From: Candidatus Nitrospira allomarina
GTDB taxonomy: Bacteria > Nitrospirota > Nitrospiria > Nitrospirales > UBA8639
Direction: 5' to 3'
DNA length: 64,000 nt
NCBI RefSeq assembly: GCF_032050975.1
Contig: NZ_CP116967.1
Coordinates: forward strand, 1,237,001 to 1,301,000
Below the pieces are notes generated by a model. The model saw only the letters and a list, made by a program, of their open reading frames with translations. It was not told the origin of the DNA and made no database searches. Position 1 is the first letter of the stretch. Every line of letters begins with the position of its first letter. Below are positions 12,101-45,335 of this stretch, in pieces. The translations under genes and the position numbers were made by a program.

Positions 12101-13345
12101 ATGAAACTGGAAGATCAACGTACGACCGTCTATAAAGTCGATCCGAACCACCCGGAAACGGAGTCGTTGCCCACGCTCCGGACGGAAGAACTGCTTTTAA
12201 ATATGGGGCCACAACACCCGAGCACCCATGGGGTGTTGAAGGTAATTTTAGAGCTTGAGGGTGAGCGGATTGTAAAATCGACCCCGGTACTTGGCTTTCT
12301 TCACCGAGGAGTTGAAAAACTGGCTGAGGGTGGAACGTATCACCAGTTTATACCCCATACCGATAGGCTGGATTATGTTTGCGCGATGTATAACAACTTC
12401 GCGTACTGTCGGGCTGTGGAAAAACTCATGGACATCACTCTTCCCGACCGGGCGGAATATCTCCGGACTCTTGTGGCTGAAGTGCAGCGTATTATCGGCC
12501 ATTTGTTCTGGTTGGGCACCCAGGCCTTGGATATCGGGGCGATGACCGTGTTCTTTTATACGTTTCGTGACCGGGAGATATTGTTGGATTGGTTCGACGA
12601 ACTGTGTGGTGCCAGACTGACAACAAGCTGGTATCGCATTGGAGGGGTCGAACGCGATTTCACCCCTTCGTTGACGGAAAAAGTCCAAAAATTCCTGGAC
12701 TACTTTCCTCCCAAAATTGAGGAATATGTGGTATTTTTGGAAAAAAACCGCATCTGGTTGGCCCGAACACGGGGTGTGGCGGTGATCTCTGCCGAAGATG
12801 CGCTGAGTTTTGGATTGAGCGGTCCGACCTTGAGAGGATCCGGAGTTGATTACGATCTGCGGAAATATGAACCCTATAGCGCGTATCCTAAATGTGAATT
12901 TAGTGTGCCGGTGGGAAAAAATGGAGACACCTACGACCGGTACTGGATTCGGATTGAGGAAATGCGTGAAAGCCTCAAAATTATTCAACAATGCTTGCAG
13001 CAAATGGAGCCAGGGCCGATTTTGGCGGATGTGCCGAGTGTGACTTTGCCTCCGAAGGATCGGGTGTTTACGAATCTGGAGTCGATGATTCAACAATTCA
13101 AACTTTTTTCGCAGGGATTTGATGCACCAGCCGGGGAAATCTATTGCGGAACGGAAGCCCATAAAGGCGAACTGGGATTTTATATCGTCAGTACTGGTGG
13201 CGGTCGGCCTTACCGTCTGAAAATTCGTGCTCCCTCCTTTATTCATATGGGCGCATTCGATTATATGGCCAAAGGCTATATGATCGCCGATGCGGTCACC
13301 ATTTTTGGCACGTACGATATTGTCATGGGGGAGTGTGATCGGTAG
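12101..13345 (+). CDS. nuoD: NADH-quinone oxidoreductase subunit D
   Basis: A 414-residue 49-kDa-type subunit that forms the quinone-binding pocket with NuoB. Visible signatures are MGPQHPSTHGVLKVIL (quinone-site His and Thr loop), GFLHRGVEKLAE, CAMYNNFAYCRAVEKL, GEIYCGTEAHKGELGFY and the C-terminal DIVMGECDR. AGG lies nine bases before the ATG. It is intact and of typical length. A long minus-strand frame that overlaps most of it is a shadow. Confidence 0.95.
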   Translation: MKLEDQRTTVYKVDPNHPETESLPTLRTEELLLNMGPQHPSTHGVLKVILELEGERIVKSTPVLGFLHRGVEKLAEGGTYHQFIPHTDRLDYVCAMYNNFAYCRAVEKLMDITLPDRAEYLRTLVAEVQRIIGHLFWLGTQALDIGAMTVFFYTFRDREILLDWFDELCGARLTTSWYRIGGVERDFTPSLTEKVQKFLDYFPPKIEEYVVFLEKNRIWLARTRGVAVISAEDALSFGLSGPTLRGSGVDYDLRKYEPYSAYPKCEFSVPVGKNGDTYDRYWIRIEEMRESLKIIQQCLQQMEPGPILADVPSVTLPPKDRVFTNLESMIQQFKLFSQGFDAPAGEIYCGTEAHKGELGFYIVSTGGGRPYRLKIRAPSFIHMGAFDYMAKGYMIADAVTIFGTYDIVMGECDR

Positions 13346-13406
13346 GGATGCCCTACCGGACTACGGCTTGAATTATGGTATCGGCTACGGTTAGAAAAGG
13401 ACCTCA

Positions 13407-16097
13407 ATGGGATTAAAGCCTGTCACGACGCCTGATGTTGAAGCAGCGACGATTGAACTGACCCTGGATGGTGAAGTGGTCCAGGCCAAGGAAGGGGTCT
13501 CTCTTTACGACGTCATATCCAGCACGGGCAAAATTGTGCCTGCGATGTGTTACCACTATACATTCGACCCCTTCGGATCCTGTGGGATGTGTCTTGTTTT
13601 TCAAGAAGGGAAAAAAGCGCCTGTCCGGTCTTGTACCGCGAAGGCCGCAGCCGGAATGGTCATCCAGACCGAGGGCGAAGATCTGTTTCTGGCCAGGAAA
13701 AAAGCCGTGGAGAAGCATCTGTCCGTCCATCCGCTGGATTGTCCGGTGTGTGACGCCGATGGCCACTGTGAATTGCAAGACATGGCCTTTGAACATGGCG
13801 TGACCAACTTAGCCAACGCGAAACAAAAAAACATTCCGGAAGATACGCGCAGCCTGGTTCTTGATTTCAACATGAACCGCTGCATCGCTTGCGGAGAATG
13901 CATCAATATTTGCAAAGACGTGCTACGCATCGATGCCCTGCAATTTATGAAAAAGGGCGGGTTTACCCAGGTAGTGGCGAAAGGCGATCAAGCGCTGGAT
14001 TGTGAATTCTGCGGGGATTGCCTGGCGGTGTGTCCGGTTGGAGCCATCACCAATAAATTTTCAAAATATGCCTATAAACCCTGGCAGCTCAAAAAAACGA
14101 CCACGACGTGCAATTATTGCGGTGACGGTTGCCAAATTTATGTGGAAACCAAAGATACGGAAGTGGTTCGGGTGACCTCCCCCCTTTCCTGGAAAAACAA
14201 ATGGGGAGATCGCACAGATACGGTAAATGGGCATGACGGTATCTGTGTGCGTGGCCGCTTTGGATTTCAGTTCATTGATAGTGACACCCGTCTGAAAACT
14301 CCATTGGTTCGTACCGAATCCGGATTGCAACCTTCCCCCTGGCTTGATGCGTTAGATTTGGCTGCAGGTCGTTTAGCCAATGTCAAAGCGCAATATGGTG
14401 CGCAAGCCATCGCGGGGCTTATTACAGCCCGGTGTACCAACGAAGATCTGTATGTGTTTCAAAAATTTATGCGTTCGGTTATTGGCACCAATCATCTGGA
14501 CAGCAGTGCCAGATACGGGCATCTGAATTTTGTCAGGGCCATGAAGCATGCCTTGGGCCTTCATCGCATGATGAATACCTCGGAAGAGATCAATAAAGCG
14601 AAGGCAGTCCTCATCATTGGAGCCAACATTACCGAGACCAATCCGGTTGCCAGTTTGCGAGTGAAATCGGCTATGGGGTTGTATAAGGCTCAAACCATTG
14701 TTGTGGATTCCATGCAAACTAATATCGCGAAATTGGCTTCTCATCCCATGATGGTGAAGCCAGGGACCGAGGGCCTCTTTGTTCAAGGTCTGGTGAAGTC
14801 GGTCCTGGATCAGGATTTGATTGACGAAGAAGCCACGTCGGCATTTCCCGAAGCCTTGCATGCGTTAAGGCAGGCAGTTGGGCTACTTTCTCTTGAGGAC
14901 ATGGCCAGCCGGACTGGGGTGGGTCTGGAGCAAATTCATGAGGCAGCCCGAATTTTTGCTGAAGCGTCCCGGTCGATCATCATTTGCGGGGAGGGTATTC
15001 TCCGGCATGCCGGTGGCTATCAGCATATGTTGAATCTTATCGACCTAGCCTGGATAACAGGAAAGCTTGGTCGAAAGGGATGCGGCATTAACACCTATAC
15101 CGAGGAAGCGAACGAACAAGGGGCAGTCGATATGGGTGTCGCACCGGAATATCTGCCCGGTCCGGTTTCCTTCACTGATTCCCAAGCCCGGGAAACATTT
15201 GCTCGTGTCTGGGGCAACAACCTTCCGGACGTTGACCGCGGAGCCAATCTCACGGAAATTCTGGATCGTTGTCAAAAGGGGGAAATTAAGGCCCTTTATC
15301 TGGTTGGCGAAAATCCATTAGAAACGCTTCCCGTTTCCTATGATGTCACCAGTGCATTAGCGAAGTTAGAAGTTCTCATTTGCCAGGACCCCTTCTTAAC
15401 GGAAATCGCCAAAATGGCCCACGTGGTTTTTCCAGCTTCCACCTTTGCGGAAAAAGACGGCACAGTGACCAATCAGGAAGGAAAGGTTCAATTTCTCCGT
15501 CCGGCCCTGGATTCTCTCGGCGAAAGCACCTTGGATTGGCACATCATGGTCGGCATGGCAAACGGGTTAGGCTCGCCCATGGAATACGAAACGACCCAGG
15601 ATATTCAAAATGAAATCCGAAAGGTCCTTCCGGGTTATTATAATCTGGGGAAGGTCTCTCATGTGGCTCCTGCCCCTTCGGAGTATTTCTCAAAGGCTTT
15701 TTCCGAGGAAGTGGCGTTGCGGTATCCCGTAGGGATGAAGAGTCCTACTCAACGGCCTTTTGCCTTACGCATGATTCAATTAATTTATCATTCAGGGAAA
15801 CTTTCCACCCGGGCTTCCGGCCTGATGGAAATTTCACCCAATACGTCCCGTCTTTGCATGAGCACCCAGGACTTCAACAATCTTGGGCTCGGAGTTCATG
15901 ACCGGGTGCGGGTCACTTCAGATCAGGGCACAGTGGAGATGGGAGTAGAAGAGGATACGTCGTTATTGCCAGGGACCTGTACAGTTCCTGAACATTTCAA
16001 TGATCCACCCGTAAAAGACCTGATGTCGGTTCAGGTCGATCCTGTCACAGGGGTTCCTTATTTCAAGTTAACCTATGTTTCTATTGAAAAGGCCTGA
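13407..16097 (+). CDS. nuoG: NADH-quinone oxidoreductase subunit G (75-kDa type)
   Basis: An 896-residue iron-sulfur subunit. It contains an N-terminal [2Fe-2S] ferredoxin domain (C48, C59, C62, C76), a His/Cys site (H108, C112, C115, C121), two [4Fe-4S] motifs (CIACGECINIC at 159-169 and CEFCGDCLAVC at 199-209) and C235, C238 and C242 with a later Cys, matching cluster N7. Residues 270 onward form a molybdopterin-oxidoreductase-like domain and a C-terminal Asp-decarboxylase-like barrel. NuoG normally takes electrons from NuoF, but no nuoE or nuoF is present beside it, so the electron donor to this complex is open. AAGGAC precedes the ATG. Confidence 0.95.
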   Translation: MGLKPVTTPDVEAATIELTLDGEVVQAKEGVSLYDVISSTGKIVPAMCYHYTFDPFGSCGMCLVFQEGKKAPVRSCTAKAAAGMVIQTEGEDLFLARKKAVEKHLSVHPLDCPVCDADGHCELQDMAFEHGVTNLANAKQKNIPEDTRSLVLDFNMNRCIACGECINICKDVLRIDALQFMKKGGFTQVVAKGDQALDCEFCGDCLAVCPVGAITNKFSKYAYKPWQLKKTTTTCNYCGDGCQIYVETKDTEVVRVTSPLSWKNKWGDRTDTVNGHDGICVRGRFGFQFIDSDTRLKTPLVRTESGLQPSPWLDALDLAAGRLANVKAQYGAQAIAGLITARCTNEDLYVFQKFMRSVIGTNHLDSSARYGHLNFVRAMKHALGLHRMMNTSEEINKAKAVLIIGANITETNPVASLRVKSAMGLYKAQTIVVDSMQTNIAKLASHPMMVKPGTEGLFVQGLVKSVLDQDLIDEEATSAFPEALHALRQAVGLLSLEDMASRTGVGLEQIHEAARIFAEASRSIIICGEGILRHAGGYQHMLNLIDLAWITGKLGRKGCGINTYTEEANEQGAVDMGVAPEYLPGPVSFTDSQARETFARVWGNNLPDVDRGANLTEILDRCQKGEIKALYLVGENPLETLPVSYDVTSALAKLEVLICQDPFLTEIAKMAHVVFPASTFAEKDGTVTNQEGKVQFLRPALDSLGESTLDWHIMVGMANGLGSPMEYETTQDIQNEIRKVLPGYYNLGKVSHVAPAPSEYFSKAFSEEVALRYPVGMKSPTQRPFALRMIQLIYHSGKLSTRASGLMEISPNTSRLCMSTQDFNNLGLGVHDRVRVTSDQGTVEMGVEEDTSLLPGTCTVPEHFNDPPVKDLMSVQVDPVTGVPYFKLTYVSIEKA

Positions 16098-16120
16098 TCA
16101 GAAAGGCCAGTCGTCAGACC

Positions 16121-16690
16121 ATGAATAATTCTCCAACGACAAAAAAGTTTTTTGACGCCGTGCTCTTCCGAGAAATCTGGGATGCGATGAAGGTAACGCT
16201 TAAGCATTTGCTGCATCGCCCCATTACGTTTCAATACCCACGGGAGAAACGAACGATTCCTGATGCCCATCGTGGCGCACTTTGCCTGTTACGGTATGAA
16301 GATGGGACCGAACGCTGTGTGGGCTGTGATTTGTGTGAAGCGGCTTGCCCTTCACGCTGCATTAAGGTTATCAGCGAAGAAGACAAAACTCTCCCGCTCC
16401 AACGGTATGCCTCCGAATTTTACATCGACATTACGAAGTGCGTGTTTTGTGGATACTGCGTCGAAGCCTGTCCGGTAAATGCCCTGGCGATGACGAAGGT
16501 CTATGAATTTTCGACTCATGATAAGCGGACCCTCCTCTTTGACAAGGCGCGGCTCTACCAGATTGGAGAGCGTCATATAGATGATGCCAAAAAGTATCTC
16601 TATGCTCATAACCAAGAGAAGGAAGGGGAGGAAGGCCGCGCCTACCGCTACCATTTTCCTGTTTCAATAAAAAGCACCCAGGAACCGTAG
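16121..16690 (+). CDS. nuoI: NADH-quinone oxidoreductase subunit I
   Basis: A 189-residue ferredoxin-like subunit with two [4Fe-4S] motifs: C66-x2-C69-x2-C72-x3-C76 (RCVGCDLCEAACP) and C107-x2-C110-x2-C113-x3-C117 (KCVFCGYCVEACP), which hold N6a and N6b and link NuoG to NuoB. It begins only 23 bases after nuoG, at the place where nuoH normally sits. The C-terminal extension after residue 145 is charged and variable in the family. Confidence 0.95.
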   Translation: MNNSPTTKKFFDAVLFREIWDAMKVTLKHLLHRPITFQYPREKRTIPDAHRGALCLLRYEDGTERCVGCDLCEAACPSRCIKVISEEDKTLPLQRYASEFYIDITKCVFCGYCVEACPVNALAMTKVYEFSTHDKRTLLFDKARLYQIGERHIDDAKKYLYAHNQEKEGEEGRAYRYHFPVSIKSTQEP

Positions 16691-16697
16691 TTTCATC

Positions 16698-17240
16698 ATG
16701 ATGTGGCTTCTTTTCGGATATTTTGCCACGGTGAGTGTCGTGGCAGGGGTTTTGACTGTGGCATTGCGAAATGCCGTGCACTGTGCCTTGGCCTTGCTGA
16801 CGCTCCTGCTCCATGTGGCCGGTTTGTTTGTCCTGCTGAATGCGGAATTCCTTTTCGCGGTGCAAATCATCGTGTATGCCGGAGCCATTCTTATTTTGTA
16901 TCTTTTTGTGTTGATGTTGATGAATTTGAAAACAGAGGAGCAGCATCTCCATAAAAAGTATGCCTTTTTAGTATTTGCCGGAACCGCAATATTTGGAGAA
17001 CTTCTGATTCTCCTCATTCAGTCCCCTTATGGCGGTGTGATTGGAGCGGCCACGCCTGACCTCATCCTGCAAACGGGACCCAGCCATGCTATTGGGATCA
17101 CGATGTTTAGCGATTATTTATTGCTCTTTGAAGTGATTGGGATTTTCCTGTTAGGGGCTGTAATTGGTGCCATCGTTCTTGCTAAAACACCAGCCAAGAC
17201 TGACCCACAAGAAGAGCCAGGCATTTCTTCCATGCCCTAA
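16698..17240 (+). CDS. nuoJ: NADH-quinone oxidoreductase subunit J
   Basis: A 180-residue inner-membrane subunit with five predicted helices. The signature AVQIIVYAGAILILYLFVLM around residue 55 includes the helix 3 region that undergoes the pi-bulge transition in complex I. It starts seven bases after nuoI; the first ATG of ATGATG is used. It has a proline-rich and acidic C-terminal tail. Confidence 0.93.
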   Translation: MMWLLFGYFATVSVVAGVLTVALRNAVHCALALLTLLLHVAGLFVLLNAEFLFAVQIIVYAGAILILYLFVLMLMNLKTEEQHLHKKYAFLVFAGTAIFGELLILLIQSPYGGVIGAATPDLILQTGPSHAIGITMFSDYLLLFEVIGIFLLGAVIGAIVLAKTPAKTDPQEEPGISSMP

Positions 17241-17253
17241 AGCCCCATAACTC

Positions 17254-17556
17254 ATGATTCCTCTTTCAGCCTATGTGGCCCTTAGCGCTATTTTGTTTAT
17301 GACCGGACTCGTCGGGGTCTTGATCCGCCGGAATTTTATTGTCGTCCTGATGTCCGTGGAGATTATGTTGAATGCGGCCAATATCAATCTGGTGGCTTTT
17401 TCTCATTACCTTCATTCCATGTCCGGGCAAATGGCGGCACTCTTTATCATTGCGGTGGCCGCAGCGGAAGCCGCTGTCGGATTAGCGATAATCATTGTGG
17501 TGTTTCGCGGGAAAATGGCCACGAACGTCGATCAAATTAATATTTTAAAGTGGTAA
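17254..17556 (+). CDS. nuoK: NADH-quinone oxidoreductase subunit K
   Basis: A 100-residue membrane subunit with three helices. The two conserved membrane glutamates of the proton path are present: one in LMSVEIMLNAANINLV and one in AVAAAEAAVGLAII. Only one nuoK gene is seen in this operon. It lies 13 bases after nuoJ and one base before the GTG start of nuoL. Confidence 0.95.
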   Translation: MIPLSAYVALSAILFMTGLVGVLIRRNFIVVLMSVEIMLNAANINLVAFSHYLHSMSGQMAALFIIAVAAAEAAVGLAIIIVVFRGKMATNVDQINILKW

Positions 17557-17557
17557 C

Positions 17558-19555
17558 GTGTTCGATCTGCTCGTTCTTCTGATTCCTCTTTTTCCTCTGC
17601 TGGCCGTGTTGGTCAACGGGCTGTTGGGCTCTCGCTATTCCCACGATATGGCAGGGCGCCTGGCTTTTGGCTCCGTCGGATTGTCATTTCTATGTGTGCT
17701 CGGTGTGTTCGTTTCGATTCTCGGAGATCCTACACCGCGTGAAGTCATCGCCTACTCCTGGATTTTCGGCGGCGATCTCTCCATAAATCTTGCCTTCCTC
17801 ATCGACCCGCTGAGTGTCATCATGCTGTTAGTGGTGACCGGTGTGGGGTTCCTCATCCATGTCTATTCCGTAGGCTATATGCATGGTGAAGAAGGGTTTA
17901 CCCGCTTCTTCACCTATATGAACCTTTTTATGGTTTCCATGCTGCTGCTCGTCATGGGAAACAATTATGTCGTGTTGTTCATTGGGTGGGAGGGCGTGGG
18001 TCTCTGTTCCTACCTGTTGATCGGGTACTACTATGAAAAAATCTCGGCGGGGAAGGCGGCGACCAAAGCTTTTGTCGTGAACCGGATTGGCGACGCCGGA
18101 TTTTTGTTGGCGATATTCCTGATCTTTTCCCATTTCGGCACACTCGATTACACGGCCGTGATGGCCCAAGCCTCGACCCTTTCAACTGAAATGGCCACCG
18201 CCATCTCGCTCTGTTTGTTAGTTGGCGCGATCGGCAAGTCGGCGCAATTACCCCTGTACACCTGGTTGCCCGATGCGATGGAAGGCCCAACTCCGGTGAG
18301 TGCGCTTATCCATGCGGCCACCATGGTCACCGCAGGGGTCTATATGGTGGTGAGAAACCATGTGATATTTGATATGGCGCCGATGGCTTTGGCTACCGTG
18401 GGCATTGTTGGAGGCGTCACGGCACTGTTTGCCGCCACAATTGGACTCGTTCAAAACGATATTAAACGAGTGTTGGCCTATTCAACCGTCAGCCAGTTGG
18501 GCTATATGTTCCTGGCCTGTGGGGTTGGCGCCTATACTGCCGCCATCTTTCACCTGATGACCCATGCATTTTTCAAAGCTCTTCTATTTTTGTCGGCCGG
18601 TTCCGTCATTCATGCATTGGGTGGGGAGCAAGATATCCGGAAGATGGGCGGACTCCATGACAAGATCCCGACGACCTATCGGGTGTTTCTGATCGGAACT
18701 CTGGCCATTGCGGGTATACCTCCCTTGGCAGGCTTTTGGAGTAAAGATGAAATTATGGCCCATGCCTTCGTCCATGGCTATTATCACTTGTATCTTCTAG
18801 CCGCTGTTGGAGCGTTCTTGACCAGTTTTTATATGTTCAGGCTCACGTATCTTACGTTCTATGGATCATCTCGAGTCGATCCGCATGTGGCCCACCATAT
18901 TCATGAATCACCTTCGGTGATGACCGTTCCGCTCGTGATTTTGGCGGGGTTGGCCCTTTTCGGAGGATTCCTTGGCGTACCCCCTGAGCATGGCTGGTTT
19001 CATGGATTTTTACATGATGTGGCGACTCCATTGGGTGCTGAGGCCCATGAAGTGGGATGGGGAATGTTGTTGGGTCTCATGAGTGTGGCCATAGCTATCG
19101 CTTTGGGTGGATGGGGGTTAGCGCATTATATGTATGCCATGCGTCCTCAGATGGCCGACGAATGGGCTGCAAAATCTCCGCGGGCCTACACCACGATTCT
19201 GAATAAATATTACGTCGATGAGATCTATGACTTCTTGATTGTGGAATTCTTTAAGAAGGTTGGGATGTTATTGGACTGGTTTGATCGCCAGATTCTGGAC
19301 CGCTTTGTTATAGGAATTGGCAAAGGAACCGATATCAGCGCAGCAGCCATTACCTGGACTGAAAAGCACGTGATCTACGCAGGATTGAATGTGGTGGGTT
19401 ATTCCAATCATCTTCTCTCGTGGTCGTGGCGAAAAATACAAAGTGGCATGGTCCATCATTATGCCGCCATTATTGTTATTGGGCTGGCGCTGCTCATTCA
19501 TCTGGCCCTGGTTTGGTTTATTGGATCTTCCGCCGCCGGCATGTCCATTCGGTAA
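17558..19555 (+). CDS. nuoL: NADH-quinone oxidoreductase subunit L with long lateral helix
   Basis: A 665-residue antiporter-like proton-pumping subunit that begins with GTG. The key TM7 lysine motif is intact (IGKSAQLPLYTWLPDAMEGP) and the TM5 Glu lies in FIGWEGVGLCSYLLIGYYY. The C-terminal amphipathic lateral helix region, from NKYYVDEIYD at 549 to HHY at 635, spans about 87 residues. My estimate for ordinary NuoL is about 60-65. This agrees with the insertion described for '2M' complex I, in which NuoL must reach across an additional NuoM. Two nuoM genes follow directly, which supports that reading. Confidence 0.95.
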   Translation: MFDLLVLLIPLFPLLAVLVNGLLGSRYSHDMAGRLAFGSVGLSFLCVLGVFVSILGDPTPREVIAYSWIFGGDLSINLAFLIDPLSVIMLLVVTGVGFLIHVYSVGYMHGEEGFTRFFTYMNLFMVSMLLLVMGNNYVVLFIGWEGVGLCSYLLIGYYYEKISAGKAATKAFVVNRIGDAGFLLAIFLIFSHFGTLDYTAVMAQASTLSTEMATAISLCLLVGAIGKSAQLPLYTWLPDAMEGPTPVSALIHAATMVTAGVYMVVRNHVIFDMAPMALATVGIVGGVTALFAATIGLVQNDIKRVLAYSTVSQLGYMFLACGVGAYTAAIFHLMTHAFFKALLFLSAGSVIHALGGEQDIRKMGGLHDKIPTTYRVFLIGTLAIAGIPPLAGFWSKDEIMAHAFVHGYYHLYLLAAVGAFLTSFYMFRLTYLTFYGSSRVDPHVAHHIHESPSVMTVPLVILAGLALFGGFLGVPPEHGWFHGFLHDVATPLGAEAHEVGWGMLLGLMSVAIAIALGGWGLAHYMYAMRPQMADEWAAKSPRAYTTILNKYYVDEIYDFLIVEFFKKVGMLLDWFDRQILDRFVIGIGKGTDISAAAITWTEKHVIYAGLNVVGYSNHLLSWSWRKIQSGMVHHYAAIIVIGLALLIHLALVWFIGSSAAGMSIR

Positions 19556-19564
19556 CTGACTATC

Positions 19565-21121
19565 ATGCAAGAAGAATTACAATTTGGGTTCCCCATTCTG
19601 ACCTTTCTGACGTTCTTTCCGTTTCTCGGGGCGATGGTTATTTGGGCTTTGAAGGATCAAGACCTGATCCGGAAAAGTGTGCTGGGGATTGCGAGCCTGG
19701 AAATGGTCGTGGCGTCGCTGATGTTATGGCGATTCGTCCCGGAGACAGCGGCCATGCAGTTCGCTGAACGTCATGAATGGATTCCTTTCCTAGGGATTAG
19801 TTATCACCTGGCGGTGGACGGAATCAGTGTTCTGTTCGTGGGCCTGAACGCTTTCCTCATCCTGCTTCTGGTTCTCTACGCTTGGGATACGGTTCATGCT
19901 CGTCCAAAAGCGTTTTATATGTGCCTGCTGGGCATGGAAGCGACGATGATGGGGATTTTCGTCTCTATTGATTTGATTCTCTTTTTTGTCTTTTGGGAAC
20001 TCATGCTCATACCCAGTTATTTCCTGATTAAACTCTGGGGCCCTGGAGAACAACGCCAATATGCCGCGTTGAAGTACGTCCTCTATACTCTCCTGGGGAG
20101 TGTGTTCATGCTTGTGGGCTTTTGCCTTCTGAGCTTGAACTATTTTGAAGCGAAGCAGGTGTATAGCTTTGACTTACTCGATTTGCTTGCTGTTCAGATT
20201 CCTCTTAGTCAGCAACTGCTGATTTTTTGGTTGGTATTTTTGGGGCTGGCCTTTAAAGCGCCCATATTTCCATTTCATTCCTGGTTGCCCGATGCCTTGG
20301 TTCAAGGGCCGATCCCGATGTCTGTCATGCTGGCGGGGATTAAATTGGGTACCTATGGTTTCCTTCGTTTTTCATTCCCTTTGCTCCCCGACGCCTCTCA
20401 GCACGCCACGGTGGTCGCCATTCTCATGACCCTGGGTCTGACCGCTATTGTGTATGGAGCGATTGTCGCAATCATCCAGCCTGACTTCCGGCGTTTGCTC
20501 GTGTTTAGCAGTATTAGCCATTTGGGTTTTGTGGTCGTGGGCATGTTTGCGCTGAATTTTCAAGGAATACAAGGCAGCCTGATCACCATGATTAATTTGG
20601 GATTCAGTACCGCGGGATTATTCTTCCTGGCCGGGTTCATTTATGAACGTCTGGGCCATAATGACGTACGACGATACAGTGGGTTGGCAAAGAAAATGCC
20701 GCTTCTTGCCACGTTCATGCTAATCATTGGGATGGCCTCCATTGGTTTGCCGGGAACCAACGGTTTTATAGGGGAATTCCTCATTTTATTGGGCGTATTT
20801 CAAGTCTGGTGGCTCTATGGAGCAATCGCGGTCACCGGGATCATTTTTGCTGCAGCATACTTTTTGTGGTTTTATGAGCGGTCCATCTTTGGACCATTAA
20901 AAGACAGTGTGCCGGCAGCCATTAAGGATTTAAATAGTCGTGAATGGGCAATCGGGGTGGCATTGTCGGTCATGATTTTTTGGATCGGCATTTATCCTTC
21001 CCCGTTCTTGCGGATGGTTAATGGATCCGTGCAGGAGGTCGTAGATCGGTTGCACCCAGGAATGGCGACAGCTCAACAGCATGATGACTTCCTGCTTTCC
21101 ACTGAGGTCATCAGGAATTAA
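19565..21121 (+). CDS. nuoM: NADH-quinone oxidoreductase subunit M, first copy
   Basis: A 518-residue antiporter-like subunit with about 14 helices. The TM5 glutamate is E145 (FVFWELMLIPSYFLI) and the TM7 lysine is K231 (LAFKAPIFPFHSWLPDA). The next conserved lysine is K260 (MLAGIKLGTYGFLRF), giving a spacing of 29 residues; the E. coli NuoM equivalents K234 and K265 are 31 apart, so two residues are missing in the segment before it. It starts nine bases after nuoL and is followed five bases later by a second, divergent nuoM. Confidence 0.93.
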   Translation: MQEELQFGFPILTFLTFFPFLGAMVIWALKDQDLIRKSVLGIASLEMVVASLMLWRFVPETAAMQFAERHEWIPFLGISYHLAVDGISVLFVGLNAFLILLLVLYAWDTVHARPKAFYMCLLGMEATMMGIFVSIDLILFFVFWELMLIPSYFLIKLWGPGEQRQYAALKYVLYTLLGSVFMLVGFCLLSLNYFEAKQVYSFDLLDLLAVQIPLSQQLLIFWLVFLGLAFKAPIFPFHSWLPDALVQGPIPMSVMLAGIKLGTYGFLRFSFPLLPDASQHATVVAILMTLGLTAIVYGAIVAIIQPDFRRLLVFSSISHLGFVVVGMFALNFQGIQGSLITMINLGFSTAGLFFLAGFIYERLGHNDVRRYSGLAKKMPLLATFMLIIGMASIGLPGTNGFIGEFLILLGVFQVWWLYGAIAVTGIIFAAAYFLWFYERSIFGPLKDSVPAAIKDLNSREWAIGVALSVMIFWIGIYPSPFLRMVNGSVQEVVDRLHPGMATAQQHDDFLLSTEVIRN

Positions 21122-21126
21122 CGATT

Positions 21127-22722
21127 ATGGGTGAATATTCCCTACTCATTATTCTGTTTGCGCCATTTTTTGGCGCGATCGCTTTAATGTTCGTCCCCAG
21201 GGAGGAAGCGCTCCTGGTGCGAATGACTGCGGCTATTTCTGCGGGTATTTCCCTCCTGGCCTCCTTCTACATTTTTTATGCTTATGATACGGCGAAAGGC
21301 GGATTTCAATTTGTCCAGCGGTATGTCTGGTCTGAAGAATTAGGCATTGCCTTTTACCTCGGGGTGGATGGCATCGGTGGCCCGTTGGTCTTTGCCTCCG
21401 CAATCTTGTTATTTGCGGGCATCTTTGTTTCGTGGCACATCAAGGATCGGACCAAAGAGTTCTATATGTTCCTCCTAATCCTTGCGGCCGCGACCATTGG
21501 GGTCTTCATGTCGCTGGATCTCTTTTTCCTCTATTTCTTTTATGAAATGTCGGTGTTGCCCATGTACTTATTACTGGGCGTGTGGGGAAGTCATACCAAA
21601 GGGTATCTCGCCATGACCGATCCCGAAGAGCGAAAGCTTCGGGATTCTATCGGATTTATTTTCAACTTTGGATCCAACAGCAAAGAATACGCAGCCATGA
21701 AGCTGACCCTATTTCTGTCTGCAGGGGCGGTGGTGGCTTTGATGGGGATCCTCTTGATTTACCACCTTTCCGGTCTCCACACCTTTGACATTGTGGTGTT
21801 GCGTGAACAGGCTCATTTTTCGGATACGGTCGCGACGTTAATCTGGTTTCTGATCTTTTTTGGTTTTGCCTCTATCGCCCCGATATGGCCTTTGCATTCC
21901 TGGTCACCCGTCGGTCATGCCGCTGCCCCGGCAGCTACCAGCATGTTGCATGCCGGTGTGTTAATGAAGCTTGGACATTTTTCCATTATTCGTGTGGCCT
22001 TTGAAATCCTGCCTGATGCGACGCGGGAGTGGATGTGGGTGGCGGCTGTTCTCTGCGTTTTTTCGATCGTCTATGGGGGACTGGTTTCTTATTTTGCCAA
22101 AGACACCAAATATGTCATTGGTTATTCCAGCTCCAGCCATATGGGCTATATCTTCCTGGGCATGGCCGCATTGAGCTATATCAGTCTCTCCGGCGCCGTT
22201 ATTTATATGTTTGCCCATGCTCTGGCAACCAGCATGTTGTTTGCCATGGCTGGCTGGGTGTATGACCAAACCCATTCACGAGACATTCCATCCTTGGGAG
22301 GACTCGTGGAAAAGATGCCGTTTATTGCCGGGGCCTTTATCGTCGCCTGTATGGCATCAATCGGCATGCCGGGGACGATCAATTTCATTGCTGAAGTGAT
22401 GATTATTGTGGGGAGTTGGGAGGCATATCCCTTTCAAGTCGTCGTGGCGGTGCTCGGCATCGTTCTGACCCTTGCGTATATGTTCAAAATGATGCGGGGG
22501 CTGTTTTACGGAAGATTAGATCCGGAATACGCTCATGCCACCGATGCCAGACAATGGGTGGATCGCATGCCATTACTTCTTTTAATAGTCTGTAGTATTA
22601 CTCTTGGGATTTTCCCCGGGCATTTTTACGAAGTGGTACGGTCGACTGTGGAGCCTATGGTAGACCGGATTAACCAGGTGGCCCCACTCATTACCCAAAA
22701 CACTCAGGGCCTTTTACCGTAA
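21127..22722 (+). CDS. nuoM2: NADH-quinone oxidoreductase subunit M, second divergent copy
   Basis: A 531-residue antiporter-like subunit, the fourth pump-type subunit of a '2M' complex I. The TM5 glutamate is kept (E140, FFYEMSVLPMYLLLGVWG). The position of the essential TM7 lysine is Ile250 (FASIAPIWPLHSWSPVGHAA), whereas the next lysine is kept at K281, exactly 31 residues on. A segment of 33 residues (155-187, rich in charges and Phe) sits between helix 5 and YAAMKLTL, where the first NuoM has only six. Identity to the first copy is clearly low, so this is an old duplication. It probably sits between NuoN and NuoL/M in the membrane arm. Confidence 0.92.
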   Translation: MGEYSLLIILFAPFFGAIALMFVPREEALLVRMTAAISAGISLLASFYIFYAYDTAKGGFQFVQRYVWSEELGIAFYLGVDGIGGPLVFASAILLFAGIFVSWHIKDRTKEFYMFLLILAAATIGVFMSLDLFFLYFFYEMSVLPMYLLLGVWGSHTKGYLAMTDPEERKLRDSIGFIFNFGSNSKEYAAMKLTLFLSAGAVVALMGILLIYHLSGLHTFDIVVLREQAHFSDTVATLIWFLIFFGFASIAPIWPLHSWSPVGHAAAPAATSMLHAGVLMKLGHFSIIRVAFEILPDATREWMWVAAVLCVFSIVYGGLVSYFAKDTKYVIGYSSSSHMGYIFLGMAALSYISLSGAVIYMFAHALATSMLFAMAGWVYDQTHSRDIPSLGGLVEKMPFIAGAFIVACMASIGMPGTINFIAEVMIIVGSWEAYPFQVVVAVLGIVLTLAYMFKMMRGLFYGRLDPEYAHATDARQWVDRMPLLLLIVCSITLGIFPGHFYEVVRSTVEPMVDRINQVAPLITQNTQGLLP

Positions 22723-36753: not shown

Positions 36754-37212
36754 ATGGAACAATTCTCCTTTTGTCCTACACTGGCCTCTCCTCTGAATAC
36801 ATCGGAGATCGCGTCTTCCAGGAAGTTTAAATCTCAATGGAATACCAATGAGAATTGTCCATGTTTAATGATTGTGAGTAATGATTCTGCGACGGGAATG
36901 TTAAAAGAACCACTAGGGGAATGGGGATACCAAGTCGTAGCGGCAAGAAATGGATGGGAAGCCTTGGTTCTGGTGGGTCGCCGACCGGTGGATGGAATGC
37001 TTGTGGATATGGATATGCCTATCATGGACGGGCGGACCATGCTTCGTGAATTGCGATGGTTGGGATATCAGATTCCTGTGCTGATGATGTCAAACGAGTC
37101 GGACGAAAAGGTTCACCGTCAACTGTTGATGGAAGGAGCCCAAGGCTTCTTTTTGAAACCGCCTCATCTTCAATCTCTCCAACAAACTTGCAGACAAGTA
37201 TTTAAGAGTTGA
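36754..37212 (+). CDS. Degenerate receiver-domain protein
   Basis: A 152-residue protein with a short N-terminal tail and one receiver domain. The phosphorylatable Asp (VDMDMPIMDG), the Ser (LMMSNES) and the Lys (FFLKPPH) are present, but the acidic metal-binding pair is replaced: LMIVSNDSATG where the neighbour at 37745 has LLVVDDDPSVG. The domain is otherwise closely similar to the C-terminal receiver of that neighbour, and even the leaders match (AACCG, TTTG-GAAAG, C-rich run, CTC then ATG). It therefore looks like a duplicate that lost the CBS part and probably phosphorylation. It may act as a phosphorylation-independent decoy. Confidence 0.8.
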   Translation: MEQFSFCPTLASPLNTSEIASSRKFKSQWNTNENCPCLMIVSNDSATGMLKEPLGEWGYQVVAARNGWEALVLVGRRPVDGMLVDMDMPIMDGRTMLRELRWLGYQIPVLMMSNESDEKVHRQLLMEGAQGFFLKPPHLQSLQQTCRQVFKS

Positions 37213-37744: not shown

Positions 37745-38773
37745 ATGAACCACCTGCCTTCATCGCCTCCATTGGCAAAAGACTTAATGGACCCAAAAGC
37801 CTTACCACTTAGAAGTGGGAAATTCGAGAACGATCTGGCCTTACAATTCCTCTCCGGTCAATATTGTGGATGGCCGGTAGTTGATTCCACCCGCAAAATT
37901 CTTGGAGTCGTGTCGGATCTCCGGCTGTTCGAGGCCGTTTCACGCTTGGATTCGCTGGATGAGCTTAGAGTCGAAGACACCATAACTTCGCCCGTTTATG
38001 TGCATGAGAGTGAAACGCTTGATACCGTGTTGAATCTGATGACCCAAAGACACATCCAGAGAATGCCTGTGGTGTGTGATCAGATTCTTGTCGGAGTCAT
38101 CTCCAAGGCCAATGTGTTACGGCATTGTCTCCCAACTTCGACTCCCTCCCGATTCGTTTCTTCGTGCGCATGGTGTGAACGCCTGCCGGGTCCCTTTGTC
38201 GTACCGGCTGGTGCGAAAGGAAGGCAGACATTAGCGTCCTTCTTGTCGATGGACCATCTCAAATTCTCTGAGATCGATCTTGTGCATACCTATTGTCCCT
38301 CTTGTTTGCAAACCCTTCAGGCACTCAACACAGCATCCGGGAGTGTGCCTTCTGATGAAACCGAGACCCAGGAAGTCCGTCCATGTCTGTTGGTGGTCGA
38401 TGATGATCCTTCTGTGGGCAGGCTGTTAAGTCAGACGCTCAAGGAATGGGGATATAAGGTCCTCGTTGCGAGAAATGGATGGGAAGGTCTGGCTGTGGCA
38501 AGCCGTCAAACAGTGAATGGCATTCTATTGGATATGGATATGCCCATTATGGATGGGAGGACCATGTTGGATGAATTACGATGGTTGGGACATCAAATGC
38601 CTGTGATGATGATGTCTGGCGCGTCGGACGAACGAGCCCTCCGGCAACTGCTACAGGAGGGGGCTCAAGGGTTTTTTTTGAAACCGGTTCATCTGAAATC
38701 TCTCAAGGAAGCCTGTCGCAGGATCCTGCAAAAGAATGAGGCTCCGTCCTCTTTTCGGTACCATATGGTCTGA
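37745..38773 (+). CDS. CBS-pair protein with C-terminal receiver domain
   Basis: A 342-residue cytoplasmic signalling protein. Residues 1-130 form two CBS motifs (GWPVVDSTRKILGVVSDLRL and ETLDTVLNLMTQRHIQRMPV). The middle has C-x2-C pairs (SSCAWCERL and YCPSCLQTL) that could bind zinc. Residues from about 218 form an intact receiver: acidic pair LLVVDDDPSVG, phosphorylation Asp in LLDMDMPIMDG, Ser in MMSGAS and Lys in FFLKPVH. It combines adenine-nucleotide sensing with phospho-signalling and has no DNA-binding domain. The kinase is not identified; the nearest kinase gene is at 40335. Confidence 0.85.
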   Translation: MNHLPSSPPLAKDLMDPKALPLRSGKFENDLALQFLSGQYCGWPVVDSTRKILGVVSDLRLFEAVSRLDSLDELRVEDTITSPVYVHESETLDTVLNLMTQRHIQRMPVVCDQILVGVISKANVLRHCLPTSTPSRFVSSCAWCERLPGPFVVPAGAKGRQTLASFLSMDHLKFSEIDLVHTYCPSCLQTLQALNTASGSVPSDETETQEVRPCLLVVDDDPSVGRLLSQTLKEWGYKVLVARNGWEGLAVASRQTVNGILLDMDMPIMDGRTMLDELRWLGHQMPVMMMSGASDERALRQLLQEGAQGFFLKPVHLKSLKEACRRILQKNEAPSSFRYHMV

Positions 38774-40334: not shown

Positions 40335-42308
40335 GTGAAGCCACCCAAACGTGCATGGCTAGGAACAGGATCAATCGGGCGAGCGTTATTGATTCTCTCC
40401 ACCGTGTTTATTTTAGCCTTGTTCGGCATCCTGCTCTATACAATCACCACAATTCAGAATCAAAAGCTCGACAGTGTGATGGTAGATCTGGCGGGACAAC
40501 AGCGGATGTTGTCTCAACGACTCATGAATGAAATTTTATTGATTTCGCAAGGGATTCCTGCTGATTACGGGTTCACCAAAAAGATCCTGAATCAAAATCT
40601 GGATGCCTTACTCCTCGGTGGACAGGTTGTGATAAATCAGGAAAGTGGGGATACGGCGGTCCTTCTTCCCCCTCCAACCCGGGACATACAATTGGCATTA
40701 GGTGCGCAACAAACACTCATGACCGAATTTATGCAGCGGGCCGACACCTTTTTGAAAACGCCATCCGATCATCCCGGATATTCTTTGGGGTTAGACGGGC
40801 TCCTGGCTTCAAATGCCCGGTTAATCGAACTTGCCAACAAGGCGGTCAAGTTATACAGCAGAAATTCCCGGGAAAAGATCTCGAACATGATCGTTTGGGA
40901 ATCGTTGATCGGTACCGTAGTGATAATTTTCGGAATTCTGATAACGAGACAGGTCAAACTGGCCAATCAGGAACTTGAACATGAAATCCAGGAACGTTCC
41001 AGGATAGAAACGGCTCTACGCTATCGAATCGAAATTGAAAATCTCATGACAAATCTTTCAACCCAATTCATCAGTCTTGAAGCAAAAGATTTGGATGCGG
41101 AGATAAATCGGGCGCTGGAAGCCATCGGAACGTTTGGTGGGGTGGATCGAAGTTATGTGTTTATATTTGAGGATGACGGTACGACCATGAATAATACCCA
41201 TGAATGGTGTCAGACCGGTATTGAGGCCCAGCTATCAAGACTTCAGGGCCTTCGAATGCAGGACATACCCTGGTTTGCAGAACGTCTTATCTCCTGCCCG
41301 TTTTATCAAATCTCAAGCGTGGCAAATCTTCCGCTCGAGGCGAATGCCGAAAAGCAGCTATTTCAAATGCAGCAAATCCAATCGCTGGTGATTGTGCCCA
41401 TGACCTTGCGCGGCAAGTTGTTCGGGTTTCTCGGATTTGATTCAGTGATGCAAGAAAAGACCTGGTCTGAAGAAGACATCAGGCTCCTCCAAATGGCCGG
41501 AGAAATATTCGTGAATGGGTTCGAACGGCAACGGGTAGAGGAAAATTTACGAAAAAGTGAAGCCGCAAAAGTTGAGGCCTTTCGCCAAAGCGATGCCCTG
41601 AAAACCGCTCTGCTGTCTTTGGTTTCCCACGAACTACGGACTCCACTTACTGCCATCAAGGCCTCCATAGCCGGGTTGATTGAACTTTCCAGACAGGATG
41701 CGTCCAAGGTGCAGCAGGAATTTCTCCAGGGTATCAATCAGGAAATCGATTTTTTAAATGGATTGGTTGATAATCTTCTGGACATGTCAAAGGTTGAAGC
41801 GGGAACCCTGGTTCCTCATCGTGAATGGCATTTATTGGAAGATCTGGTCGAAGGCGCAATCAGACGGTTGGAAATGTCTTTAAAAGGCCGATCTTTGCAA
41901 GTGAACCTGGGGGAGAAAATTTCCCCTATTTTTGTGGATGGGATGGAAATTCAGCAAGTTCTGATCAACCTGTTGGATAATGCCATTAAATATTCTCCCC
42001 CAGGCTCCTTGGTCAGCATTGTTGGCCGCATGACGCCTAACCAGGTGGAGGTAAGAGTCTCCAGCGATGGAGAAGGAATCCCTCAGGAAGAGTTGGTAAG
42101 TATTTTCAACCGATTCTACCGGTTAAAGGGTCCGCGGACACGACTCATTCGTGGTACCGGTCTCGGATTGGCGATCTGTAAAGGTATGGTCGAAGCCCAT
42201 GGTGGTCGAATTTGGGCCGAATCACAGAATCGAATCGTGACGATTAGCTTTACGTTGCCGACTCCTGATACACCCCCTATGATAGATTTTGACCGGGAAG
42301 AGGAGTAA
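40335..42308 (+). CDS. PilJ/NarX-like-GAF sensor histidine kinase
   Basis: A 657-residue inner-membrane kinase that begins with GTG. The N-terminal helix (ALLILSTVFILALFGILLYT) is followed by a PilJ-type periplasmic region with DSVMVDLAGQQRMLSQRLMN, similar to the P-box helix of nitrate/nitrite sensors NarX and NarQ, and a second membrane helix near residue 200. A GAF domain covers about 240-395. The kinase core has H432 (LVSHELRTPLTAIKASI), the N box (LINLLDNAIKYSPPG), SSDGEGIPQEELVS and GTGLGLAICKGMVEAHGG. The OmpR-type regulator gene begins 11 bases downstream and is the likely partner. The ligand is inferred, not shown. Confidence 0.88.
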   Translation: MKPPKRAWLGTGSIGRALLILSTVFILALFGILLYTITTIQNQKLDSVMVDLAGQQRMLSQRLMNEILLISQGIPADYGFTKKILNQNLDALLLGGQVVINQESGDTAVLLPPPTRDIQLALGAQQTLMTEFMQRADTFLKTPSDHPGYSLGLDGLLASNARLIELANKAVKLYSRNSREKISNMIVWESLIGTVVIIFGILITRQVKLANQELEHEIQERSRIETALRYRIEIENLMTNLSTQFISLEAKDLDAEINRALEAIGTFGGVDRSYVFIFEDDGTTMNNTHEWCQTGIEAQLSRLQGLRMQDIPWFAERLISCPFYQISSVANLPLEANAEKQLFQMQQIQSLVIVPMTLRGKLFGFLGFDSVMQEKTWSEEDIRLLQMAGEIFVNGFERQRVEENLRKSEAAKVEAFRQSDALKTALLSLVSHELRTPLTAIKASIAGLIELSRQDASKVQQEFLQGINQEIDFLNGLVDNLLDMSKVEAGTLVPHREWHLLEDLVEGAIRRLEMSLKGRSLQVNLGEKISPIFVDGMEIQQVLINLLDNAIKYSPPGSLVSIVGRMTPNQVEVRVSSDGEGIPQEELVSIFNRFYRLKGPRTRLIRGTGLGLAICKGMVEAHGGRIWAESQNRIVTISFTLPTPDTPPMIDFDREEE

Positions 42309-42319
42309 ACGGTTTACCC

Positions 42320-43033
42320 ATGGCGCATGGATCTCGAATATTAGCTGTTGATGATGAGCGGCAAATACGTCGTTCCCTACAGATCAATCTTGAGGCAAAA
42401 GGATATGAAGTCCTGACGGCTGACACCGGAGAAGAGGCCCTCCAAATTATGAGCCACCGCCTTCCGGACCTGGCCCTCGTGGATTTACTGCTTCCCGGAA
42501 TGGATGGCATTGACCTGACCCGTCAAATTCGTGAAACCTACCAGATTCCAATCATTATCCTTTCCGCAATTGGAGAGGAAGCGAAAAAAATTGAAGCTCT
42601 CGAAATCGGGGCAGATGACTATGTTACCAAACCGTTTAGCATGGAAGAACTGACGGCGAGAATCCGCTCAGTCCTGCGGAGGACCTCCTCAATTTACGGC
42701 ACCGATCCCGTGTTCACATTTGGAAATTTACAGGTTGACTTCGAGAGTCGAAATGTCTGCATTCGGAACCAGGCGGTGAAATTAACCCCGACGGAATATG
42801 ATCTGTTGAAATACCTCATTCAGAATTCCGGAAAAGTTTTGACGCATGGAACCATTCTCCGGGCCATTTGGGGTGCGGGATATAGCGAGCAGGCTCAATA
42901 TTTACGTGTCTTTATTGGAAATTTAAGGAAAAAATTGGAAAAAAACACGGCAAGACCTCAGTATATTCTCACCGATCCTGGAGTCGGCTATCGATTTGCC
43001 ACCGATTTTGAGGAAAATGAAAGCCTTTCCTGA
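42320..43033 (+). CDS. OmpR/KdpE-type response regulator
   Basis: A 237-residue two-domain regulator. The receiver has an acidic pair in ILAVDDERQIRR, the phosphorylation Asp in LALVDLLLPGMDG, Ser in IILSAIG and Lys in DYVTKPFSMEEL. The winged-helix output domain has the family recognition features LTPTEYDLLKYLIQNSGKVL and VFIGNLRKKLEKN, ending with DPGVGYRF. It most resembles the KdpE branch. It should be phosphorylated by the adjacent histidine kinase and bind DNA; the targets are unknown, but the divergent region upstream of the kinase is a candidate. Confidence 0.88.
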   Translation: MAHGSRILAVDDERQIRRSLQINLEAKGYEVLTADTGEEALQIMSHRLPDLALVDLLLPGMDGIDLTRQIRETYQIPIIILSAIGEEAKKIEALEIGADDYVTKPFSMEELTARIRSVLRRTSSIYGTDPVFTFGNLQVDFESRNVCIRNQAVKLTPTEYDLLKYLIQNSGKVLTHGTILRAIWGAGYSEQAQYLRVFIGNLRKKLEKNTARPQYILTDPGVGYRFATDFEENESLS

Positions 43034-43468
43034 TTGACCGTTTGCATGTGAGGTGTTCCTTATCAATCATTGCCTGTTGCCTTCCCAGTTGCTGTAATCC
43101 TTCCCTCTCCTTGTGGTCTCTCGTGTAATTTCTTAGGCCCCCTTGGATTAAATTTCTTCCAGCGCAACGTCCTTCCAAAACCGCGTCGGCAGGCCCTGCC
43201 ATGCTCATCCGGATAGAGTGTATGGCCTCTTTACTCGCTCGTGGGCTGGTGAGTGGCTCAATCCGTTCTTCTTCATTCCATGGCATTCGTCCCTGCCCAA
43301 CACCGTGTTGATCTAAACAGGAATCAGGAAATGGCGCTATCAGGAATCTTTATGAAATCTTTATTTGAACGGGACACAAATCAAATAGATTCTTTATGGG
43401 TTTGATAATTACCATCTAGATAAACCACTACAACCGCTTGGAAGAAGAAGGAATCGGGAGGTGAACAG
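43034..43468. other. Intergenic region upstream of the cupredoxin gene
   Basis: About 435 bases without a convincing gene. A short inverted repeat CAACAC-C-GTGTTG lies at about 43301. A promoter for the cupredoxin gene is expected near the right end. Confidence 0.35.
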
Positions 43469-43927
43469 ATGAAAAATTTGAATTGGACAACGGCCTCTCC
43501 CGCTCTGACTGGGTTAGGAATTTTCCTTTTATTTCTATCAATCTGTGGCCCTTCCTTGGCCTCCACCCAGTCTTCGGATGTGAGGGTCTCAATGGATTAT
43601 TGGGCACCCTATTATAGACCGGCTTTGGCAATTGTCCCCGATGGAGTCTCGATTCATGTTGTGAATCCGACTTCATCACCGCATAGCGTCACACACGATG
43701 GTTGTCGAACAGGTGGGCCTTGCGCATTTGATACGGGTGGCGTTCAACCCGGGCAGGAATTCACGATCCCTTCACTGCCTCCCGGTCGGTATCCTTATTA
43801 TTGCGTGCTTCATCCCATCATGAGGGGTGAAATTATTGTTCTTCCCCATCACACGGTTATAAGCCAAGGTACGATACACGAACACTTCACGGTCACTGAT
43901 GTCGATGTCAGGGAGTCTAGGGAGTGA
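43469..43927 (+). CDS. Exported cupredoxin (plastocyanin/amicyanin-like)
   Basis: A 152-residue protein with a signal peptide (LTGLGIFLLFLSICGPSLAS). The mature part is a beta-sandwich copper domain. Candidate type-1 copper ligands are His in TSSPHSVTHDGC, then Cys, His and Met in PYYCVLHPIMRGEIIV, similar to the amicyanin loop. An extra Cys pair (DGCRTGGPC) may form a disulfide. GGGAGGTG precedes the ATG. It would shuttle electrons or bind copper in the periplasm. It is followed by a receiver gene about 100 bases downstream. Confidence 0.85.
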   Translation: MKNLNWTTASPALTGLGIFLLFLSICGPSLASTQSSDVRVSMDYWAPYYRPALAIVPDGVSIHVVNPTSSPHSVTHDGCRTGGPCAFDTGGVQPGQEFTIPSLPPGRYPYYCVLHPIMRGEIIVLPHHTVISQGTIHEHFTVTDVDVRESRE

Positions 43928-44435: not shown

Positions 44436-45335
44436 ATGAAGAATGGTAAATTGAATATTTCTCGGGGAATTCCCACTCCTGATATATCACGAATTCAGGA
44501 AAGTTTTGAGGTCGTGGCCTCTCACGGAGAGCAGATCGTTTTCCGATTTTATCATGTGTTGTTTGATAAATTTCCGGAGTTTCAGACCTTTTTCTCTCAG
44601 GCCCAGTTAGCCCAACAATATGCGGCGTTTCTAAGCGGATTCCGCACCCTGGTCATGCACATGGAAAACTCTGAGGAATTACGTTCATCCCTCGTTCAAT
44701 TGGGGGAACGGCATAGGAAATATGGTATTAAAAGCAAGCACTATCCTCCTGTCGTATATGCGCTCTTACATGTGCTGATGGAATTGGGTGGGGAAAGCAT
44801 GGATGGAAAAACATATGATGCTTGGGAAAATTTCCTTCACCTGATGAGAGCCATTATGCTTGAAGCCTACTCCCTGGAAATGTTGCCAGGTGAGAATCGG
44901 CAGAAGAATTTTCTCAGCACTGGGTCAGGAGGCCACACTAAAAGAATTCTGCTTATTGATGATGACCGCCAACTTTTGGACCTTTATCAATCATACTTGG
45001 AACTCGAAGGGTATCTATGCAGTCAAGTTTCAGATGTGGCTTGGGCATTTACCCATATTCAAATGAGTCACTATGACCTCGTCCTGACGGATTTCCAAAT
45101 GCCTGCGATGAATGGCATTCAGTTACGGAGAAACCTTGAATATGTGGGTAATGGGTGTTGCCCCCCATTTGTCTTGGTGACAGGCAGTCCCAATCAGGAG
45201 ATTCGTAGGCAGGCGTTAGAGTCCGGATTCGAGGCAGTGCTGAAAAAGCCGCATGATCTTCCTGAGCTGAGTTCTCTCGTAGGAAAAGTCTTGCAAAAAT
45301 CTATGGGTTTTCAGGGAAATCTTCAGGATATGTGA
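44436..45335 (+). CDS. Flavohemoglobin-like globin fused to a receiver domain
   Basis: A 299-residue protein with an unusual architecture. Residues 15-150 form a globin of the flavohemoglobin type: Tyr39 (FRFYHVLFDKFPEF) aligns with the distal B10 Tyr, a Gln near 60 with E7, and His93 (LGERHRKYGIKSKHYPP) with the proximal heme ligand. Residues 168-290 form a receiver with acidic residues D175-D177 (ILLIDDDRQL), phosphorylation Asp219 (LTDFQMPAMNG), Thr249 (LVTGSP) and Lys270 (LKKPH). It could couple heme binding of O2 or NO to a phosphorelay. AAAGGAAG precedes the ATG. There is no reductase or DNA-binding domain. Confidence 0.88.
   Translation: MKNGKLNISRGIPTPDISRIQESFEVVASHGEQIVFRFYHVLFDKFPEFQTFFSQAQLAQQYAAFLSGFRTLVMHMENSEELRSSLVQLGERHRKYGIKSKHYPPVVYALLHVLMELGGESMDGKTYDAWENFLHLMRAIMLEAYSLEMLPGENRQKNFLSTGSGGHTKRILLIDDDRQLLDLYQSYLELEGYLCSQVSDVAWAFTHIQMSHYDLVLTDFQMPAMNGIQLRRNLEYVGNGCCPPFVLVTGSPNQEIRRQALESGFEAVLKKPHDLPELSSLVGKVLQKSMGFQGNLQDM

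Follow-up and report, generated by a model that had tools for sequence, protein, structure and literature searches.

A globin-receiver fusion protein in a conserved two-component gene cluster of Candidatus Nitrospira allomarina

The last gene of a two-component gene cluster in Candidatus Nitrospira allomarina encodes a globin and a receiver domain in a single protein. This raises the question whether the protein is a haem-based gas sensor and, if so, how a signal would leave it. The cluster was analysed within a stretch of 64,000 nucleotides (contig NZ_CP116967.1, positions 1,237,001 to 1,301,000), referred to below as the window, and its features are given in Table 1.

Table 1. Features of the globin-receiver locus, in window coordinates.
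Feature	Position	Strand	Details
Membrane histidine kinase, PilJ-GAF-HisKA-HATPase	40335..42308	+	
N-box VDLAGQQRMLSQ in kinase sensor domain	40482..40517	+	residues 50-61; published consensus
OmpR/KdpE-type response regulator	42320..43033	+	
Leader element, candidate response-regulator site	43348..43397	+	in gap before cupredoxin gene
Cupredoxin-like protein, first gene of putative operon	43469..43927	+	Cupredoxin_1 26.7 bits against a cut-off of 27
Single-domain receiver, 121 aa	44025..44390	+	acidic pocket, phospho-Asp and Lys intact
Globin-receiver fusion protein	44436..45335	+	299 aa; ORF exact; nine-member alignment
F-type 3/3 globin domain	44478..44870	+	residues about 15-145
Linker, variable	44871..44939	+	residues 146-168; low model confidence; median dN/dS 0.66
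Receiver domain	44940..45290	+	residues 169-285

Pfam searches of the fusion protein returned Globin (PF00042) at residues 38-137 (E 7e-14) and Response_reg at residues 171-280 (E 1.6e-18), and both domains were present in all nine aligned members. The Protoglobin match was weaker (30.6 bits), and the model for NO-inducible flavohemoprotein reached 58 bits against a cut-off of 432, over the globin part only. The original prediction of an N-terminal globin joined to an intact receiver, which takes the place of a reductase, was thus borne out by the exact ORF, by the two Pfam domains with Response_reg at the C-terminus and by the presence of the fusion in nine genomes, which also rules out a frame or assembly artefact. 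The architecture is therefore solid, and its N-terminal globin and C-terminal signalling domain follow the layout of globin-coupled sensors. In an AlphaFold model built on the nine-row alignment, the globin part was of moderate confidence (block means about 68-86) and its helices could be assigned to A-C and E-H, with helix D absent; the linker was disordered and the receiver of low confidence. With Foldseek, the modelled globin part matched Hell's Gate globin I (rmsd 1.5, target-normalised TM 0.91).

The architecture had been called unusual, and the searches agree. Among 60 relatives, the full-length fusion was found in nine genomes, all of the window's genus (Nitrospira-type records), and every full-length relative in the contig scan came from a Nitrospira, Nitrospirales or Nitrospirota MAG record. 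Scanning 396 Nitrospirota genomes for Globin located the fusion in the window's genus only, and no wide spread through the phylum was found. A Bacillota-type sample of 249 genomes held no globin-receiver; all eight Globin matches lay in flavohemoglobin-size frames (398-505 aa), and one of them (L129) looks like a flavohemoglobin when read through. A sample of 51 genomes from a third phylum gave no Globin match, and tblastn against a plasmid collection gave no record covering 80% of the fusion query. Restriction to the genus accordingly applies within the searched set, with Pseudomonadota and most other phyla lying outside the sampling. The pairing was also absent from the literature searched, subscription literature and InterPro being outside that search, and appears to be undescribed.

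Apart from the fusion, the Globin matches read in the Nitrospirota scan comprised single-domain globins, proteins of globin-PAS-chemoreceptor type and a candidate double globin. The latter (L120, G668:C35:1-4000, 332 aa) has an N-terminal F-type globin followed by a truncated-globin-like stretch; it was rejected as a globin-receiver, its second stretch being globin-like. A further candidate of 637 aa (L121) was also among the matches.

In a maximum-likelihood tree of globins, the nine globin-receiver globins formed one clade (100/100) on a long stem. Sequences of flavohemoglobin size formed a separate clade (100/100), with the exception of one Rhodococcus plasmid protein. The tree left the place of the globin-receiver clade among single-domain and chemoreceptor-linked globins without resolution, and DosC appeared in it as a very long branch. 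Score and structure searches put the fusion globin nearer to F-type globins. Because of the separate clades, we class the fusion globin as an F-type globin and not as a flavohemoglobin; membership of the flavohemoglobins was ruled out by the absent reductase and by the tree. The earlier description as flavohemoglobin-like thus holds at the level of the F family only, flavohemoglobins and fusion globins each forming a clade of their own.

Alignment to E. coli Hmp placed Tyr39 at B10, Phe53 at CD1, Gln61 at E7, His93 at F8 and Tyr103 at G5, and all five residues were invariant in the nine fusion sequences. Tyr39 and His93 correspond to Hmp Tyr29 and His85, which upholds the Tyr B10 and proximal His recognised at the outset. 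On these residues, the fusion globin is predicted to bind haem. The alignment rows consist of the window sequence and eight orthologues (61-92% identical). Purifying selection holds both halves of the protein, the receiver (median dN/dS 0.07) more strictly than the globin (0.23); the linker reaches 0.66 (Nei-Gojobori, 36 pairs). The faster evolution of the globin relative to the receiver, together with its long stem in the tree, would suit a globin that no longer binds haem and has become a module for protein-protein contact or for another kind of sensing, like that of Bacillus subtilis RsbR. RsbR, however, lost its proximal His (PMC4476040), whereas in the fusion neither His F8 nor any other tested pocket residue varies, and we consider a haem-less globin very improbable.

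The pocket also bears on the direction of signalling, as the globin could be the output and phosphorylation of the receiver could tune its haem activity (NO dioxygenation or gas binding). The protein would then be a nitrate-induced, kinase-controlled NO scavenger. Tyr B10, Gln E7, His F8 and Tyr G5 of the NO-dioxygenating flavohemoglobins are all invariant in the fusion, the receiver is its more conserved half, and no Globin-family (PF00042) match other than its globin was found in the genome, which therefore encodes no separate flavohemoglobin. Against such a scavenger, no reductase domain is fused, the receiver usually comes first in response regulators, and the column of flavohemoglobin Glu135, fusion residue 145, varies among the members. 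An output role of the globin is thus unlikely. Invariant Glu143, two residues before that column, was considered as the flavohemoglobin proximal Glu and dropped after the Hmp alignment; an acid at its place is also found in several Nitrospirota globin-chemoreceptor fusions and single-domain globins.

In the receiver, Asp175, Asp176, Asp219, Thr249 and Lys271 were invariant in the nine fusion sequences, and the alignment shows in every member the acidic pair, the phospho-Asp, the Thr/Ser and the Lys before Pro. Asp219, named in the original prediction, indeed occupies the phospho-acceptor position. Lys270, named there as the conserved Lys, was off by one: both lysines are invariant, and it is Lys271, directly before Pro272, that fits. 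The position of the aromatic switch of CheY (Tyr106), assigned by alignment of the KP motif, is taken by an invariant Val268. An aromatic switch residue is common in receivers without being universal. With Val268 at this position, the usual Thr-Tyr coupling may not operate in the fusion receiver, and signal output by this route is doubtful.

The gene cluster runs from the PilJ-GAF kinase and the OmpR-type regulator over a 435-bp gap to the cupredoxin, the single receiver and the globin-receiver, which is last; the single receiver gene ends 45 nt before it. In the relatives that bear the fusion, this order was kept wherever contigs reach far enough. The cupredoxin-like protein is probably exported, judging from its hydrophobic N-terminus. 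Within the genus, its orthologue (at least 64% identity) was found in the fusion genomes and in one more (G004), the contig of which stops directly after the single receiver. In genome G019, a second copy of the kinase-regulator-box-cupredoxin-receiver-globin cluster was observed (L152, G019:C604), cut by the contig end; this may be a duplication or a strain mixture in the MAG.

The residues of helix alpha-1 differ among the three receivers of the locus, those of the globin-receiver, the single receiver and the OmpR-type regulator. A kinase shared with the OmpR-type regulator is therefore not implied by sequence. The unlike alpha-1 residues, and the fact that two effector-less receivers adjoin and are co-conserved, would also be expected of a relay or phosphate sink. 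There, the globin-receiver and the adjacent single receiver would work with a kinase or phosphotransferase encoded elsewhere, and the kinase-regulator pair upstream would control expression only. Gene order, however, ties no other kinase to the fusion, and the PilJ kinase keeps its synteny with it on all contigs of sufficient length, which makes such a relay quite unlikely.

Expression of the last three genes may be governed from the gap before the cupredoxin gene, where CTTTAT-N5-CTTTAT was found at 43348-43364 and a third CTTTAT at 43392-43397, 44 bp after the first. The spacings of the repeats thus equal one and four steps of 11 bp. Sites of the OmpR family are typically direct repeats at about 11 bp. 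The element was kept at 11 loci in nine species, the most distant of which differ by one or two bases. A search of the 4.55 Mb genome for the exact 17-bp pattern gave this single site; a search with a 19-bp form that tolerated two mismatches added two poorer ones. By position, repeat form and conservation, the adjoining OmpR-type regulator is the obvious candidate to bind this box.

For the kinase that precedes this regulator, a nitrate signal is suggested. PilJ domains that bind nitrate have been assigned the N-box consensus [IVL][ND]xAGxQRML[ST]Q (PMC6381276); in NarX/NarQ, the nitrate motif reads GxxR (PMC8199190). The segment VDLAGQQRMLSQ of the kinase fits the N-box consensus exactly and lies between hydrophobic segments near residues 14-40 and 184-210. 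Among six orthologous kinases, the N-box was exact in three and differed at one consensus position in each of the others; GxxR was present in all six. A phmmer search of the sensor domain against solved structures gave no match, which leaves the Pfam PilJ match and the N-box as the basis of the nitrate link. The locus kinase probably senses nitrate. As in NarX, NarQ and McpN, its N-box follows the first membrane segment and belongs to a PilJ domain, but the kinase has a HisKA core with GAF and an OmpR-type partner instead of HisKA_3 with NarL.

The genome also encodes a NirK-like protein, with a match below the curated cut-off, and this putative NirK is a possible source of NO. NirK has been reported in all analysed Nitrospira, with its function unknown (PMC8115632). 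In view of the N-box, the NirK-like protein and this report, nitrate and NO are reasonable signals for the locus. The conserved synteny, the N-box of the kinase and the putative NirK fit a nitrogen-oxide context. For the fusion itself, NO or low O2 as the signal and the PilJ-GAF kinase as the phosphodonor, both raised at the outset, are putative.

Taking these lines together, we tentatively put forward, at a little short of even chances, that the fusion is a cytoplasmic haem gas sensor which has its own receiver as output and tunes a nitrate-responsive two-component loop. The haem of the F-type globin would bind a gas, NO or O2, with NO favoured, and the ligand would alter phosphorylation, dephosphorylation or partner binding of the receiver. 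Within the two-component circuit encoded at the locus, the receiver would accept phosphate or serve as an adapter. The nitrate-binding kinase would drive the OmpR-type regulator, which would bind the CTTTAT repeat and switch on the cupredoxin, the single receiver and the globin-receiver, and the last two could return gas information to the circuit. The architecture, the invariant residues of haem pocket and receiver, the synteny, the N-box and the conserved leader element are observed; we infer haem binding, the identity of the ligand, the kinase partner, the link between regulator and box and the direction of signalling.

The gas-sensor model agrees with the invariance of the haem-pocket and phosphorylation residues in nine species and with globin-chemoreceptor fusions of the same order, which use F-type globins as input modules. 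Against it, the order sensor-receiver without an effector leaves the output unexplained, the aromatic switch residue is missing, and the alpha-1 face is unlike that of the OmpR-type regulator; moreover, the N-box is inexact in three of the six orthologous kinases and the NirK-like match falls under its curated cut-off. It is conceivable, though doubtful, that the locus represents a new layout, with direct gating of a receiver by a gas bound to haem: in nitrite oxidisers, NO or O2 would set the phosphate flow of a nitrate-sensing circuit without action of the globin on a kinase or cyclase. If so, the receiver and not the kinase would be the point at which haem gas sensing joins two-component signalling. 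Nitrite oxidisers of the marine type would then own a compact circuit that links nitrate to NO or O2, and a regulator responsive to gas, encoded next to a nitrate sensor, would offer a concrete way to approach the question of NirK function in Nitrospira (PMC8115632).

The closest described architecture is HGbRL of Methylacidiphilum infernorum, an F-type globin with a Roadblock/LC7 domain, limited to Methylacidiphilum and termed a putative globin-coupled sensor (PMC4476040). Both proteins join an N-terminal globin that lacks helix D and has Tyr B10 and Gln E7 to a small regulatory C-terminal domain, and both are limited to one genus, the fusion within the searched set. The output of HGbRL is Roadblock/LC7, whereas that of the fusion is a receiver, and HGbRL is not described in a two-component locus. 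The globin-coupled sensors HemAT, AfGcHK, NmpU and DosC likewise join an N-terminal globin to a signalling module, but they combine an S-family globin with a chemoreceptor, kinase or cyclase output, where the fusion has an F-type globin and a receiver; in AfGcHK and NmpU the gas sensor sits on the kinase itself. Hmp shares with the fusion the broad globin family, Tyr B10, Gln E7, His F8 and Tyr G5, whereas the fusion has no FAD/NAD reductase, lies outside the flavohemoglobin clade and has not kept the Glu135 column. A related globin serves as N-terminal input in the Nitrospirota F-type globin-PAS-chemoreceptor fusions (L122-L128), but with a chemoreceptor signalling output, and most of these come from other families of the order or class, where they are frequent.

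Other genes of the window were also noted. Two more receiver proteins, a single receiver and a CBS-receiver protein, are encoded at 36754-37212 and 37745-38773 (+), just upstream of a Rieske oxygenase gene, and were kept with the locus in several relatives. Complex I genes at 12101-22722 (+) include more than one proton-pumping antiporter-type subunit, in agreement with a report on marine Nitrospirales of an alternative complex I that has two M subunits (PMC10579370).
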